Assembly: GCA_019750255.1 (NCBI GenBank)
Contig: JAIEOU010000003.1
Coordinates: forward strand, 83,350 to 124,096
Direction of reading: 5' to 3'
Source of the DNA: Patescibacteria group bacterium
Lineage (GTDB): Bacteria > Patescibacteriota > Minisyncoccia > Phycocordibacterales > UBA918
DNA: 40,747 bases
In this document: positions 14,550 through 40,185 of the stretch, in pieces
How the letters are laid out: the number at the start of each line of letters is the position of its first letter
How positions within the stretch are numbered: position 1 is the first letter of the stretch
Made by a program: the position numbers and the translations under genes
The notes under the pieces: generated by a model
What the model was told of the DNA's origin: nothing
The model's input: only the letters and a program-made list of their open reading frames with translations
Databases searched by the model: none

Positions 14550-14610
14550 AAAAGGCGCTCGGCAGGGACTACGCGTCGCGACCGCGCAGTCCCCGCCGAG
14601 CGCCTTTTTT
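14550..14610 (+). terminator. Long terminator hairpin after nrdA
   Basis: Stem AAAAGGCGCTCGGC with GCCGAGCGCCTTTT, extended inward by GGGACT/AGTCCC and CGCG pairs, then T6. One of the most stable hairpins in the window. Confidence 0.9.
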
Positions 14611-16728: not shown

Positions 16729-17274
16729 ATGGCTAAACAAGTTTCAACAGGCGAACGGCACTGGTACGCGATTCACACCTACTCGGGCTATGAGAATGCC
16801 GTAACGCGCAACCTCAAGCAGCGTATCGACTCACTCGGCATGCATGACAAAATTTTCAACGTTGTCGTGCCAACTGAAAAAAAGATTCGGGTAAAGGGTG
16901 GCAAGCGTGTTATGGAAGAGGAGCGTATCTACCCTGGATACGTCCTCGTAGAAATGGTAGTGGATGATGAGTCGTGGTACGTCGTGCGTAACACGCCACG
17001 GGTCACCGGGTTCGTCGGTAGCGGCACCCAACCAGTACCCCTCACACAGGCCGAGTACGACTCGCTCATGAAGCGTATGAGTACTGATACCGTGAAGCAT
17101 AAGGTTGATGTCTCGGAAGGTGACCTTGTGATTATTACCGATGGTCCGTTTAAGGAGCTTGAAGGGAAGGTGGGTGGTGTTGACGAAAAGAGCGGCAAGG
17201 TAAAGGTGCTTGTTGCCATGTTCGGTCGCGAAACTCCGGTTGAACTCGACTTTTTGCAAATTAAGCGGGTTTAA
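16729..17274 (+). CDS. nusG: Transcription termination/antitermination factor NusG
   Basis: 181 residues, usual length. It binds RNA polymerase and couples transcription to translation through uS10. The NGN domain (WYAIHTYSGYENAVTRNLKQ, YPGYVLVEM, TPRVTGFVG) and the C-terminal KOW domain (GDLVIITDGPFKELEGKVGG) are complete. Its TAA stop is the first codon of structured element A (TAAGGAGG). Unlike in most bacteria, rplK does not follow directly; a 1-kb stretch with an opposing gene lies between. Confidence 0.98.
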   Translation: MAKQVSTGERHWYAIHTYSGYENAVTRNLKQRIDSLGMHDKIFNVVVPTEKKIRVKGGKRVMEEERIYPGYVLVEMVVDDESWYVVRNTPRVTGFVGSGTQPVPLTQAEYDSLMKRMSTDTVKHKVDVSEGDLVIITDGPFKELEGKVGGVDEKSGKVKVLVAMFGRETPVELDFLQIKRV

Positions 17275-17361
17275 GGAGGCCGTAGGCCGACTATAAACCG
17301 CTTATGCAGGCGCTTCATTATTTCTGAGCATCAAAGCGAAAGAAATAATGGTAGCGAGCTG
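17272..17361. repeat. Structured repeat element, copy A
   Basis: Read on the reverse strand: outer stem GCAG-ct-CGCT / AGCG-c-CTGC, internal loop ACC/GA, inner stem ATTATTTCT/AGAAATAAT, loop TTCGCTTTGATGCTC, then TAAGCGGTTTATAGTC, a small GGCC hairpin and CTCCTTA. On the plus strand it starts at the nusG stop codon. The 15-nt loop and internal loop are identical to copy B while both stems differ in sequence but keep pairing. Confidence 0.75.
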
Positions 17362-17400
17362 CGAAAAAGAGTATGAATTGGCGAATAACTTCGTCGGTAC

Positions 17401-17450
17401 GGAAAAAGGAGCGCTTGCTGGACACGTGTCCCACTCGCGCTCCTTTTTCC
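17401..17450. terminator. Terminator-like hairpin with a nested palindrome
   Basis: Stem GGAAAAAGGAGCGC with GCGCTCCTTTTTCC (14 bp) and, inside the loop, the perfect 12-bp palindrome GGACACGTGTCC (17420-17431). It can act in both directions and probably ends secE-nusG transcription. Confidence 0.8.
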
Positions 17451-17521
17451 TAGACTCCTCGTTCTTCATCCAATTTCTGCCTTTTGATAAAAGCCCCTGT
17501 GTGCTGCTAAATGAGCTAATT

Positions 17522-20740: not shown

Positions 20741-20831
20741 TTTAACAAACACAACCGCTGAATTCTCCCTGTGGGGTCGAATTCAGCGAAGTGTTTGCCT
20801 AAGCAAAATATAGTCGGCCTAAGCCTCCTTA
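20741..20831. repeat. Structured repeat element, copy D
   Basis: Plus strand: outer stem AAACAC/GTGTTT, internal loop ACC/GA with an A-A mismatch, inner stem GCTGAATT/AATTCAGC, loop CTCCCTGTGGGGTCG, then TAAGCAAAATATAGTC, a GGC/GCC hairpin and CCTCCTTA. Its last three bases are the thyX stop codon, so on the thyX strand it begins TAAGGAGGC, as copy A does after nusG. Confidence 0.75.
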
Positions 20832-22208
20832 GTTCTCCTCAACTTTTACAATGTCACTTTCGCCGCGCTTTACGTTAAAGCGTCCCGGGTCTGGGTCGAG
20901 GTGAAGTGTGAGACCAGTATCAGCATAGGCGTCCCTAAGAAGGACAGCCATTTCCGCTGCGCGCTTAGCGAGGGTGGGGTGGACGAGGCTTGTCGCCCGT
21001 AGCTCCACGAGATAGGCGAGTGCCGGTAGGTCGCCTGAAAGGTAGTTGCTGATATCCAGCCCCATGGGGAGATAGTACTGTCGCACGGCAGCGTCGGGTG
21101 TGATTGTCTGCGCAGATGCGAGTTGGCTCGCAATCAATGCTTCGGCTTTGGTGCGCAAGGTCGGAGTGAGTTCACCCAAGTACCACTGATTAAAGCCCAA
21201 ATCGGCCGTAAGAAGCGGCATTCTTTGGGTAACCGCACGGTGGCGTTGAATGTCACGAAATGAACCGAAGTCTAACGTAAAGGCAAAGGCTGCCTCTCCG
21301 TAGGCGCCGAGGAATTTTGGTAGCTCGGTTTTTGCGGGCCGCGCGGCAATGAGTTCGCGGTATGGTGCAAGCGCGGCCTTGTCGATGCTGTCGCGGACGA
21401 GCGCTACCGCCGGTGATTTCAGGTCATGATAGTAGTAGTGCTTATACGAAGCCTTAACGTACGCTTCCGTGCCTTCGTAGCGCTTCTTGTTGGTATCAAA
21501 GGAGTTTGGGTAGACGGTAATCAAGGCGTCTTCCAATTTTTCAGCAATCTCCCGGACCTCAAGGAGGGGATGGTGGCGTAGCTGGAGTATGCGGTCGGCA
21601 AACTGGCGTAAGGTCGTTGTCCAAGCCAGGTTCGTAGAAGCACCAGCCGGGAGAAAGCCCCGGCACATATCAAAGGCGCGCGCCGCAATCGCTTTTTGAT
21701 AAATCGTTTCTTTTTCTTCTGCCCCGCGGGGGTAGCGGGCCGGAAGCGCCGCTTTCATTTCAGCCACCGCTTCCAGATAAAACGTCCGCCAAGTTTCAAG
21801 TACAATGGTACTTTCAGGTGTCCCTACGGGATCAATAAAGGGCTGGGCGGCAAAATCAATGTAGCGGGTTGACGCCTCCTGTCCGTTGTACAGTTTTGAG
21901 TCTTGAATCGCTTTAGCGGCCAGCATCGAGATACCTTCCACAAACACAATCGCGCTGCCGCAGTCACCGATTGATTTGTGTCCGTAGCCAACGTAGTAGG
22001 TGGACATAAATTTTTCCGCCCCGCGCTCGGCGAGGACCTTGAGGTGCTCATCGATACCCCCAGTTGAGCGCGAGTGGAGCGCCTGTAGCATTGAGGTGGC
22101 TTCAGCATTCAACACGGCTCCGGGATTAAGGATTACAATCTTGCCGCCGCCCACGAGCCCGGTCGTGTGGTGGGTGAGGTCGGCCAAATCATTAGTATGG
22201 GTTTTCAT
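20829..22208 (-). CDS. thyX: Double-length ThyX-type flavin-dependent thymidylate synthase
   Basis: 459 residues, about twice a normal ThyX. ThyX methylates dUMP using FAD, NADPH and methylene-tetrahydrofolate. Two ThyX-like halves are visible. The N-half has SKLYNGQEASTRY (104-116), matching the S-x-N-E-x-S-x-R-Y end of the signature, but IQD where RHR should be; then FLPAGASTNLAWTTTLRQF (186-203). The C-half has RHR (322-324) followed by AVTQRMPLL, without the S-x-R-Y part; then YYLPMGLDISNYLSGDLP (378-395). The two halves thus keep complementary pieces. Double-length ThyX-like proteins exist in other bacteria. A -10 box lies 8 nt before the ATG. Confidence 0.85.
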   Translation of the reverse strand: MKTHTNDLADLTHHTTGLVGGGKIVILNPGAVLNAEATSMLQALHSRSTGGIDEHLKVLAERGAEKFMSTYYVGYGHKSIGDCGSAIVFVEGISMLAAKAIQDSKLYNGQEASTRYIDFAAQPFIDPVGTPESTIVLETWRTFYLEAVAEMKAALPARYPRGAEEKETIYQKAIAARAFDMCRGFLPAGASTNLAWTTTLRQFADRILQLRHHPLLEVREIAEKLEDALITVYPNSFDTNKKRYEGTEAYVKASYKHYYYHDLKSPAVALVRDSIDKAALAPYRELIAARPAKTELPKFLGAYGEAAFAFTLDFGSFRDIQRHRAVTQRMPLLTADLGFNQWYLGELTPTLRTKAEALIASQLASAQTITPDAAVRQYYLPMGLDISNYLSGDLPALAYLVELRATSLVHPTLAKRAAEMAVLLRDAYADTGLTLHLDPDPGRFNVKRGESDIVKVEEN

Positions 22209-26442: not shown

Positions 26443-29400
26443 ATGAGTAAGCTACAGGGTCGTGAGAACGACACCGTTACAGTCGACACGGTAGTAAAAA
26501 GCGAGGTCGCCCTACGTGAGGAAACTATCCAGGCGTTTTGGGAAGAGCACGACATTTTTCATAAAAGTATAACGACGCCCGCCGGCGCCGAACCAAAAGG
26601 GGACTTCGTTTTTTACGACGGGCCGCCATTTGCGACTGGCACCCCGCACTACGGACATATTTTGGCCGGTACTATCAAGGATGCCATTCCGCGTTTTTGG
26701 ACGATGCAGGGTTACCGGGTGCGTCGTAAGTGGGGGTGGGATTGCCATGGGCTTCCACTCGAGAACCTCATCGAGAAGAAGCTAGGGTTGGCGACGAAGC
26801 GTGATATTGAAACCTACGGGGTAAAAAACTTTAACGAAGCGGCGCGTGCGGCGGTGATGGAATATGCTGATGATTGGGCAAAAGTAGTGCCACGCATGGG
26901 GAGGTGGGCGGATATGGAAGTGGACTATAAGACGATGGATAGCACCTACACCGAAAGCGTGTGGTGGGTGTTTTCCGAGCTTAATAAAAAAGGGCTCGTC
27001 TACGAAGGTTTCAAGAGTATGCACCTTTGCCCGCGCTGCGGGACAACCCTCAGTAACTTCGAGGTAAACCAAGGGTATAAAGATATAAAAGATATTGCCG
27101 TGACGGTAAAGTTGCCGCTCCTCGACGCAGCGGGTCTGCCGACCGATACCAGTCTCCTTGTTTGGACGACTACACCGTGGACGTTACCCGGCAATATGGC
27201 CGCGGCTATCCACCGCGACTTTGAGTACGTGAAGGTACAACTTGAGGGCGGGTATGTAATTCTGGCCAAAGGGCGTCTAGCCCAGCTCGGTGACACCCCT
27301 CATGAAATCGTCGAAACCATGAAGGGTAGCGACCTGGTCGGACGTTCTTATGAGCCGCCATTTAATTATTGGCAGAAGCAGGACTTCGATGGTAAAGGTA
27401 AGGCTTGGAAAATCTATCACGCTGACTATGTTGAGCTTGGTGAAGAAGGAACCGGCGCGGTGCACCTCGCTCCGGCCTATGGGGATGAGGACATGCAGCT
27501 CGCGAAAGCCGAGGGCGTACCAATCATGCATCACGTCGATGGCGCTGGGCACTTCCTCGATTTTGTGACCGACTTTGCCGGACAGCTCGTGAAGCCAAAA
27601 GATGATGATGAAGCTGGCGTCGATCACAAGGCCGCAGACATTGAAGTACTGAAAAAACTTCAGGAAATGGGGAAGGTGTTTAAGAAGGAAAATATCACCC
27701 ATAGCTACCCGCACTGTTGGCGCTGTGACACGCCGCTCCTCAACTACGCGACCACGTCGTGGTTTGTGAATGTGCCCAAGATAAAGGATGAACTGGTGGC
27801 AGCGAACGACACCGTACAGTGGGTACCCGACCACGTGGGCAGTAACCGGTTTGGTCGCTGGCTCGAAGGGGCACGCGACTGGGCGGTGTCGCGCCAGCGC
27901 TATTGGGGTGCCCCTCTTCCGATCTGGAAAAACGAAGTGACGGGGGAGTATAAAGTCTTCGGATCACTAAAAGAACTTTTGAGTCATGCTCCGAAGCGGG
28001 GTAATCAATACTTTGCTGTGCGGCATGCGCAAGCAGAGAGCAATCTCACTGGTGTTATAAATGCGCTTTCTGGTACAGACAATCCACTCACTGAAACTGG
28101 TAGGGCACAGTGTGTGGAAATTGCATCAGCGCTCAGAGACAAAGGAATTACGAAAATCGTACACTCTGGTCTCGAGCGTGGACGTGAGACGGCCGAGCGG
28201 GTAGCAGCGAGCCTTGGTCTTCCCTTAGAGGTTGTTGTCGAAGATTCTCGCATCATTGAATTCCAAGTTGGCGCAGCCTACGAAGGTAAAACATGGGAGG
28301 AGTTTAATGCGAACTTTAATAGTGAAGCGGAGAAGTTTACCAAAGAGCTCCCTGGCGTGGAGCGTCGTCGTGACCTCATTAAGCGAGCTGGTGAGTTTCT
28401 GTATGAATTTGACGCAGCTCACCGAGAGGAAAATGTACTTATCGTTGGTCATGGTAGTTCTATCTTTGCGCTGCAGTGTGCCGCCGAAGGTGCCGACATG
28501 AAGCGTACGGTAGCGCTCAAGGAAGAAGGATATCTAAAAAATGCTGAAGTCCGACCAGTGCCGTTTACACCCCTGCCACACAACGACTTTTACGAGCTCG
28601 ACTACCATAGACCATATATCGATGATTTTGAGGTGGTTGATACCGACGGTACGCGACTTGTGCGTGTTCCCGACGTTTTTGACTGTTGGTTTGAGTCAGG
28701 CTCGATGCCTTATGCGCACCATCATTACCCATTTTCCTGCGGTAATGAGCAATTTGGAAAAGAGTATTTCCCAGCCCAGTTTATCGCCGAAGGGCTCGAT
28801 CAAACGCGGGGCTGGTTCTACTCACTCATTGTGCTGGGAACGGCTCTGTTTGGTAAATCGCCGTATGAGCACGTGATTGTTAATGGACTTGTGCTGGCTG
28901 AAGACGGAAAGAAGATGTCAAAGTCATTGCGTAATTACCCCGACCCAATGGAGCTTACAGAACGGGTGGGAGCGGATGCGATGCGCTACTACCTTCTCAC
29001 TTCACCGGTGGTGCGCGGCGAGGATTTGCACTTCTCCGAAAAGGAAGTGCTCGAGCTACAGCGAAAGAATATTGGTCGCCTCCATAACGTACTTGCGATG
29101 TACGAGCTGTATAAAGACGGTACGGCACCGGGAGGAGATTCGGCGAATATTCTCGACCGGTGGATTGTGGCGCGCCTCAACCAGCTGATTGCCGACTCGG
29201 AGGCGGGGTATCGCGCGTACGAGCTCGACCGGGCAACACGCCCAGTCGCGGACTTTATTGATGACCTGTCGGTCTGGTATCTGCGTCGTAGTCGTGACCG
29301 CCTTAAGGGTGATGACGCAGAGGATAAGGCGCTTGCCCTTGGAACCTTGCGACACGTATTACGCGAGCTCGCGCTTGTTATGGCCCCGGTCATGCCATTT

Positions 29401-39499: not shown

Positions 39500-39572
39500 G
39501 CCGCGTATCTGAACCAGTGGCTGCACTCTAGAATCAGGCCGCTGACGTTCCGCTGATTAAAATTAAAAATAT

Positions 39573-39667
39573 GCAGGTTGCCACCGTTACTTTTTTCGCT
39601 TTGATGCTCAAAAGTAACGAGGCAACTGACTAAGGAAAACATAGTCTCAGCTCCGCTGCTCCTTGTT
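39573..39667. repeat. Structured repeat element, copy B
   Basis: Plus strand: outer stem GTTGCC/GGCAAC, internal loop ACC/GA, inner stem GTTACTTTT/AAAAGTAAC, loop TTCGCTTTGATGCTC (same 15 nt as copy A), then TAAGGAAAACATAGTC, the hairpin CAGC-TCC-GCTG and CTCCTT. It lies between ssb and rpsR, 30 nt before the rpsR start. Confidence 0.8.
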
Positions 39668-39696
39668 TCTCCTCATTATTAGATAAAAGTATTCCC

Positions 39697-39900
39697 ATGG
39701 AAAAGCACAACCTCCACAAGAAAGCCCCGGTCGAACACGTCGACTACAAAGACATTACCCGTCTGGGAGCCCTCGTAAACCCACACGCTCGTATCCTCAA
39801 CCGCCGCCGCACCGGCTTTACTGCCAAGCAGCAGCGCGACCTCTCACGAGGCATCAAGCGCGCTCGATTTATGGCCCTCATGCCGTACATCCAACACTAA
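39697..39900 (+). CDS. rpsR: 30S ribosomal protein bS18
   Basis: 67 residues. Binds bS6 on the small-subunit platform. It contains VDYKDITRLGALVNPHARIL, RRRTGFTAKQQRDLSRGIKRAR and ARFMALMPYIQH, the full family signature. bL9 (rplI), the usual next gene, is absent. Flanked by repeat elements B (before) and C (after). Confidence 0.97.
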   Translation: MEKHNLHKKAPVEHVDYKDITRLGALVNPHARILNRRRTGFTAKQQRDLSRGIKRARFMALMPYIQH

Positions 39901-39908
39901 GCAGAAAC

Positions 39909-40000
39909 AAAGAGCGGCGTAAGCCGCTCTTATGTTTTGCTTACGTGGGCGCTTCACTAGTTTCGACCCTTAAAGGGAGAAACTGGTGGCAGCGAGCCAC
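39909..40000. repeat. Structured repeat element, copy C
   Basis: Reverse strand: outer stem GTGG-ct-CGCT / AGCG-c-CCAC (same bulges as copy A), inner stem CAC-c-AGTTT / AAACT-a-GTG, loop CTCCCTTTAAGGGTCG (type of copy D), then GTAAGCAAAACATAAG and the AGAGCGGC hairpin. It starts 9 nt after the rpsR stop. Confidence 0.7.
39911..39930. terminator. Terminator after rpsR, part of element C
   Basis: Stem AGAGCGGC/GCCGCTCT, loop GTAA, then TATGTTTTGCTT on the plus strand and TTTGTTTC on the minus strand; bidirectional. Confidence 0.85.
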
Positions 40001-40185
40001 GGTGAACACTCCAAATAGTACTTCCAGTATCAAACACTTCGGCGGATTGTCCCTTCACAGGGACAATCCGCCGATTTGTGTGTGCAAAGATAGTCCGTAT
40101 GGTAAACAGGCGCGGCTAGTCTCCTCTCCTCAGTGTTTGAAAAAAGTAACGGAGGCGAGTTGAGGTGAGGCGAGCTTGAAATTAG
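40001..40185. other. Gene-free region with further inverted repeats
   Basis: Besides copy E (40032-40084) it holds a loose 13-bp repeat, TCTCCTCTCCTCA near 40120 with TGAGGTGAGGCGA near 40162, with two mismatches. No gene. Confidence 0.4.
40032..40084. repeat. Partial repeat element, copy E
   Basis: AAACACTTCG, a stem of 15-16 bp (GCGGATTGTCCC / GGGACAATCCGC) and TTTGTGTGTG. It matches copy D read on the thyX strand (AAACACTTCG, CACAGGGA, TTGTGTTTG at the same places) but lacks the TAAGC...ATAGTC module. Probably a decayed copy directly after C. Confidence 0.5.

Follow-up and report, generated by a model that had tools for sequence, protein, structure and literature searches.

The thyX stop codon and element D

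Why does a palindromic repeat lie across the stop codon of thyX, and is it part of the transcript's 3' end or an insertion? In the 40,747-nucleotide stretch of DNA analysed here (the window), the thyX open reading frame (20829–22208, minus strand, 461 codons, homologues at 62–76% identity) ends inside such a repeat, element D. The initial annotation placed D at 20741–20831, and the sequence indeed reads with the architecture it described. A covariance model search identifies D as a genuine copy of its family at 20742–20842 (88.4 bits, E = 2e-16), with its gene strand on minus and the order T1, GGAG, hairpin 2, guide, hairpin 1. The overlap with the stop codon (20829–20831) therefore stands, while the proposed end does not: D reaches about 11 nt into the thyX coding sequence, covering its last codons, so that the true end lies near 20842.

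Hairpin 1 of D (20746–20797, plus strand) has an outer stem CAAACAC/GTGTTTG, an AACC/GAA internal loop, an inner stem GCTGAATTC/GAATTCAGC, a TC/TC mismatch and a CC..GG tip, with the class I loop CTCCC-TGTG-GGGTCG. Hairpin 2 (20800–20841) reads TAAGCAAAATATAG-TC-GGCctaaGCC-TC-CTTAGTTCTCCTCA. Its inner arm, the partner of T1 and the "guide" on the minus strand, lies at 20800–20813 (plus strand) and is weakly matched in D; its apex, TC-GGC-ctaa-GCC-TC, at 20814–20827 (plus strand; GA/GA on minus); and its T1 arm at 20829–20842 (minus strand), where it is formed by the thyX end ..GAGGAGAAC-TAA, with the stop falling at +11 of T1.

The covariance model, built from 28 copies and spanning 103 positions, finds exactly four copies in the window, with E-values (from a short calibration) between 5e-17 and 1e-13. 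Apart from D these are element A (17261–17364, gene strand plus, model match on minus), element B (39571–39676, gene strand minus, model match on plus) and element C (39897–40002, gene strand plus, model match on minus). Element A begins with TAA-GGAGG right after nusG, as first noted, and its left arm is the end of that gene, ..AAG-CGG-GTT-TAA, with the stop at 17272–17274.

In the host genome (G000, about 950 kb, 99.9% complete), where the window occupies C15:83350-124096, the model matches 66 places at E ≤ 0.01, and 49 of these reach at least 60 bits when overlapping pairs with a common hairpin are counted. Across the genus the element is present (at least one model match) in 25 of 38 genomes, the host included; since scoring covered the 105 best candidate places of each genome, the copy numbers of the relatives are lower bounds. 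Elsewhere in the order, weak matches alone were obtained, in 8 of 146 genomes. Among named genome records the exact core pattern occurs in one, that of Parcubacteria group bacterium Gr01-1014_29, and a pattern search of viral contigs returned none. An Rfam scan of the window reported tRNAs only, with no family above its gathering score for the repeat, and nothing credible was retrieved for element A at E-values up to 10.

Copies also form tandem and inverted arrays. In one cluster of the host genome (G000:C10:7000-8400; loci L002 and L012), copies in both orientations surround a greA-like gene, together with a 187-bp tandem duplication, and adjacent copies have one hairpin 2 in common.

Fold, covariation and loop classes

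The element, of about 103 nt, consists of two adjacent, unlike hairpins. On the gene strand it starts with T1 (TTAAGNAGAAATAA), followed by an AGGAG-like head, a small hairpin, CGACTA, an inner arm complementary to T1, and then hairpin 1, which throughout the family is built of an outer stem, an asymmetric loop, an inner stem and a tip. The TC/TC mismatch is present in both hairpins and reads GA/GA on the gene strand.

The fold covaries strongly. Both sides of a pair have changed in 289 cells, against 90.6 ± 8.3 after shuffling, 87.6% of cells are paired, and the covariation score of 0.456 falls to 0.06–0.10 when the partners are slid. The signal is the same in the relatives alone. Alignments fitted to the model lean towards its structure, and the unfitted alignment A1 gives the same signal; since copies within one genome are related, the shuffle results are not to be read as probabilities.

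The T1 arm follows its own element: its fit to the inner arm of the same copy (6.9) exceeds that to the arms of other copies (4.4), a difference reached in none of 10,000 permutations, nor in any of 10,000 restricted to the 21 copies that overlap a stop codon. Element D, with a complementarity score of 3.0, is the lowest among these, tied with the copy at valS.

A second loop class, claimed from copies in the window, does exist, and both classes are widespread: class I, with CGACC..GGGAG on the gene strand, has 19 copies in the host genome, and class II, with GAGC..GCGA, has 22. The two share a single fold and differ in the tip pair, C-G in one and G-C in the other.

The resemblance to the anti-Shine-Dalgarno sequence of 16S rRNA, which had been noted at first, does not hold up as a conserved feature when copies are compared, and a role based on it finds no support. 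TAAGGAG is present in 25 of the 46 host copies and 10 of 40 from relatives, TAAGGAGG in only seven and two, respectively, and AACGAG, AATGAG and AAAGAG are common. In the window CCTCCTTA occurs three times against 0.95 expected, once outside any element, which by itself is not beyond chance; in D it occupies 20824–20831. The motif is one side of the TC/TC (GA/GA) internal loop common to both hairpins.

Hairpin 2 also occurs in another form, whose T1/inner-arm stem has an extra GA/GA mismatch (TTTGTTTGAGCAAAGGAG..CGACTATTGCGAAAATA); it was observed at L178, L167, L168, L172, L176 and other loci in genomes G005, G028, G034 and G020. A kink-turn reading of the GA/GA loop was rejected, no regular 3-nt bulge adjoining it.

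Placement at stop codons

To describe placement, 46 host and 40 congeneric copies were taken together (86 in all), with gene ends called from ORF length rather than annotation. In 21 of the 86 copies a long sense ORF has its stop in the element's first 15 nt, and in none at the mirror position, the hairpin-1 end (Fisher p = 2e-7); local stop density predicts 2.1 for the former. One bias bears on this count: T1 has stops in two frames, so that an ORF coming from its side is terminated in it. If every ORF that runs into the element and stops at any point inside it is counted, the figures are still 28 on the T1 side against 6. The position of the stop within T1 varies (+1, +2, +5, +6 or +11). Because some of them are orthologous, the 21 copies represent about 16 distinct genes, among which we take from the translations nusG, ftsZ, groEL, valS, khpA, priA, rplF, grpE and thyX.

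About three quarters of the copies have no stop overlap; they lie near gene ends in either orientation. Stop overlap is thus no general rule, but in a quarter of the copies it is a true preference with one favoured side. The initial annotation had named placement at random with respect to stop codons as the outcome speaking against its view; these counts do not show it, and the suggestion that insertion is targeted to gene ends is well supported by the one-sided enrichment, together with the displaced gene ends and the scattered gain and loss described below.

Displaced gene ends

The nusG end could be read in 29 genomes, and the element sits directly on it in six (G000, G034, G002, G024, G060 and G022). 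At all six sites the inner arm is nearly the reverse complement of the nusG end in the same genome, though the codons differ between genomes (codon/arm pairs AAGCGGGTTTA/TAAACCGCTT, TAAGAAgATTTA/TAAATTTCTTA, TAAAAGAATTTA/TAAATTCTTTA and TCAAGAAaGTTTA/TAAACTTCTTGA). Beyond the element a second nusG end is found in four of the six: AAAAGAGTATGA in G000, AAACGAGTGTAA in G034, AAAAAGGTCTAA in G002 and AAAAGAATTTAA in G024, the last identical to the first end. These displaced ends read KRV-stop, KKV-stop or KRI-stop; in the window the displaced end, AAA-AGA-GTA-TGA (K R V stop), follows element A at 17365–17376 on the plus strand.

Presence at nusG requires six changes on a 30-genome tree, no fewer than with shuffled labels, indicating that the element comes and goes at one stop codon. 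The tree was inferred by a quick search from NusG, FtsZ and KhpA without their C-terminal columns, with several open forks and FtsZ missing in about a third of the rows; its starred branches alone force four of the changes. In the near relative G061 the nusG stop carries no element, and an apparent half of hairpin 1 followed by AAGCGGGTGTAA lies further down.

At other genes the picture is similar. The element lies on the ..KLK-stop end of ftsZ in G000 and G032 and on the ..DLKI-stop end of khpA in G000 and G061; most congeners have no element at either gene, including some that end in the same residues. G000 and G061 carry the element at both the khpA and the priA ends (L145/L156 and L150/L151). 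At the orthologous priA site the loop class differs between these two genomes, which suggests replacement at one site.

Flanking direct repeats are clear at about eight sites, with lengths of 14–39 nt, among them CTGTGCAGAAATAA (14 nt, exact) at valS in G000 and repeats of 33 nt (a gene end in G061), 28 nt (G006), 27 nt and 17 nt (G020). They are absent or unrecognisable at most copies, D included, and where they occur the second repeat is often set apart from hairpin 1 by additional sequence. A copy's own flanks are more alike than shuffled ones (14 of 5,000 permutations as high), to which tandem arrays contribute. Varying lengths, and most copies having no duplication, imply no single staggered cut.

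At thyX, the T1 of element D (..GAGGAGAAC-TAA) is near the family consensus AAGSAGAAATAA, and the thyX ends of relatives differ and carry no element; the last residues of ThyX here therefore probably came with the element or were shaped by it. Beyond D comes a stretch (AAAAAGAAGTGGCGGCGAACTGC) similar to the 3' half of a further hairpin 1, apparently one half of an earlier copy.

Two further palindromic families were noticed at the same genes. One (TTGGCGAA..CTTCGTC..hairpin..TTCATCCAA) lies directly at the nusG and khpA stops of many congeners (L100, L110, L116, L117, L119, L120 and L125 at nusG; L221, L225, L227 and L237 at khpA) and in the window at 17377–17480; its far arm is likewise complementary to the last codons of the gene. 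The other, a two-hairpin family (GGCGGAGCGATGTGA..CGCCCCTTCCTAGGGCG..ACTTAGTAGA), comes after the stop codon of ftsZ in many of the congeners (L180, L189, L192, L193, L194, L197, L198, L201 and L208), often with a displaced second FLRRSKLK-stop and an inverted ftsZ end (TCAAAACTTAAATAAGTTTTGA).

A proposed model of insertion at gene ends

These observations lead us to propose that D is a copy of a small, non-autonomous mobile palindrome, of REP/MITE-like character, that inserts at gene ends without breaking the gene; we give this reading a probability of about 0.5. According to it, the element would spread within and between genomes, preferring targets that resemble its left arm (approximately TTAAGNAGAAATAA or a variant), which very often means a site across a gene's stop codon. 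Insertion would keep the gene whole, its last codons and stop becoming the T1 of hairpin 2, while a second copy of the gene end would be pushed beyond the element on the right. With a full gene end left in place and the displaced one on the right, insertions over stop codons would be harmless and survive. The inner arm being complementary to T1, target and element would pair and so complete hairpin 2. The likeliest mechanism would be a single-strand insertion guided by pairing between the inner arm and the target, with an enzyme supplied in trans.

Several steps of this proposal go beyond the sequences themselves. We infer that the element moves as single-stranded DNA, and the enzyme would act in trans; no autonomous copy was recognised among the loci examined, whose genes were partly annotated. 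The complementary arm may either have served as a guide at insertion or have been made or selected afterwards. The G024 site, with its identical duplication and perfect arm, favours matching at insertion, while valS, where an exact 14-nt duplication accompanies an arm matched over the core only, and D, whose match is poor, suggest that a core match would be enough. We picture the arm as acting before insertion rather than adapting to its site later. Against mobility it can be said that even diverged copies keep their structure well, an observation that fits selection in place too.

Should the proposal be right, tiny Parcubacteria genomes would carry lively populations of very small palindromes that remodel the termini of essential genes, nusG and ftsZ among them, while leaving these genes unbroken. 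The pairing between arm and last codons would make the choice of target directly testable and add a guided mode to the few insertions known, and apparently conserved 3' structures in such genomes may turn out to be insertions.

Alternative explanations

A different reading takes the element as a cis-acting structure of the mRNA 3' end, its hairpins enclosing the stop codon together with the 3' UTR so as to protect the message or tune termination, and selected gene by gene. The stop lies within the stem at some 16 different genes, always in sense, and orthologous ends are occupied in at least two genomes at ftsZ, khpA, priA and nusG. Moreover, the gene strand as RNA folds more stably than the opposite strand in 79 of 86 copies and has more G-U pairs (7.2% against 2.4%), although on model-fitted columns in the host genome the G-U counts (65 and 60) favour neither strand, so that it is the whole folds that carry the argument for one strand. 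The element may have a role at mRNA 3' ends. On the other side stand the three quarters of copies that lie off stops in either orientation, the scattered presence at nusG and the many empty ftsZ and khpA ends, the priA site with its different loop classes, and the displaced gene ends, which require an insertion event. We regard this explanation as doubtful, with a chance of about one in five; the ribosome recycling and mRNA stability suggested at first have no direct support, most copies lying off stops and those showing no orientation bias.

Equally tentative is a combination of the two, in which an element that arrived by insertion was later retained as a useful 3' end. It would account for the insertion marks together with the pairing kept in diverged copies and the occupancy of orthologous ends, but common occupancy could equally come from repeated insertion.

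Much less probable is that the element is a classical REP mobilised by the RAYT-like Y1 transposase of the genome. The GGAG-hairpin head, the arrays in both orientations and the location at gene ends would suit such a system, REPs are known to supply stop codons (PMC3733652), and the host genome has one Y1 gene, which is RAYT-like (G000:C9:10401-10625). However, RAYT genes are defined by the REPs that flank them in inverted orientation, and this one has no copies beside it, the sole C9 match among the matches listed being at 26991. Nor does Y1 presence track the element across the 38 genomes (17/6/8/7, p 0.30): eight genomes have the element without Y1_Tnp and six the reverse, and six congeners at least 90% complete have elements but no Y1 gene. 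Membership of the RAYT-linked REPs was rejected on these two grounds.

Target-primed reverse transcription of an RNA copy, which would explain the variable 14–39 nt duplications and the preferred folding strand, is highly improbable, as no reverse transcriptase was found in the 99.9% complete host genome and the enzyme does not track the element across the genus (4/5/21/8, p 0.23).

Relation to known systems

The mobile palindrome that we favour shares features with several known systems. It is like REP, BIME and REPIN sequences, the GTAG- and CGTC-tagged palindromes: short imperfect palindromes in tens of copies, located at gene 3' ends, clustered in both orientations and with compensated stems. 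REPs are mostly found downstream of genes, in clusters of both orientations and with compensatory stem changes (PMC2817692, PMC3733652); the element is likewise high-copy, extragenic, placed at gene 3' ends and clustered in both orientations. It departs from the definition of a REP as a 20–40 nt palindrome tagged GTAG or CGTC, having 103 positions, two hairpins and GGAG, CGAG or TGAG heads, and also in lacking a flanked RAYT, in using the gene's own end as left arm and in leaving a displaced second gene end. The termini of GTAG REPs are reported to supply stop codons, and CGTC REPs have no known transposase (PMC3733652); in the latter, published work already knows palindromes that have no transposase of their own.

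MITEs resemble the element in being small, non-coding and dispersed, and the flanking duplications at some of its copies would fit them as well; unlike them it has no terminal inverted repeats of the whole element in the alignments, its duplications vary in length, and no parent transposon was found. The ends of IS200/IS605 elements are hairpins, cut by a Y1 HUH enzyme, and a sequence adjoining the hairpin recognises the target through base pairing; that guide has about 4 nt, lies on the other side of the hairpin, and insertion is not known to make a target duplication. The hairpins, and for the element a putative targeting by pairing, are the likeness, whereas the arm of the element has 11–13 nt and duplications exist. 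Integrative islands of the tRNA type rebuild a gene's 3' end and displace the old one, as is seen here, but the element is only about 100 nt long, has no integrase and uses many target genes. Integron attC sites, which also lie at gene ends, fold into hairpins that contain an extrahelical base; no RYYYAAC/GTTRRRY boxes were seen by eye in the consensus of alignment A1.

More speculatively, the element may belong to a class of miniature mobile elements that choose the stops of essential genes by pairing an internal guide arm of 11–13 nt with the final codons, a strategy which several unrelated families of one genus would share; insertion would then be guided by nucleic acid and spare the gene, with no known enzyme. 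We consider such a class unlikely enough to be put forward as a candidate only.

TIGR arrays, which occur in parasitic bacteria, are tandem 8–12 nt repeats with 9-nt spacers beside a Nop-domain gene (PMC12045711); identity of the element with them was rejected, the tandem-array layout being different (PMC12045711).

Elsewhere in the window, positions 14550–14608 hold a long, near-perfect intergenic hairpin (AAAAGGCGCTCGGC../..GCCGAGCGCCTTTT), probably a bidirectional terminator.
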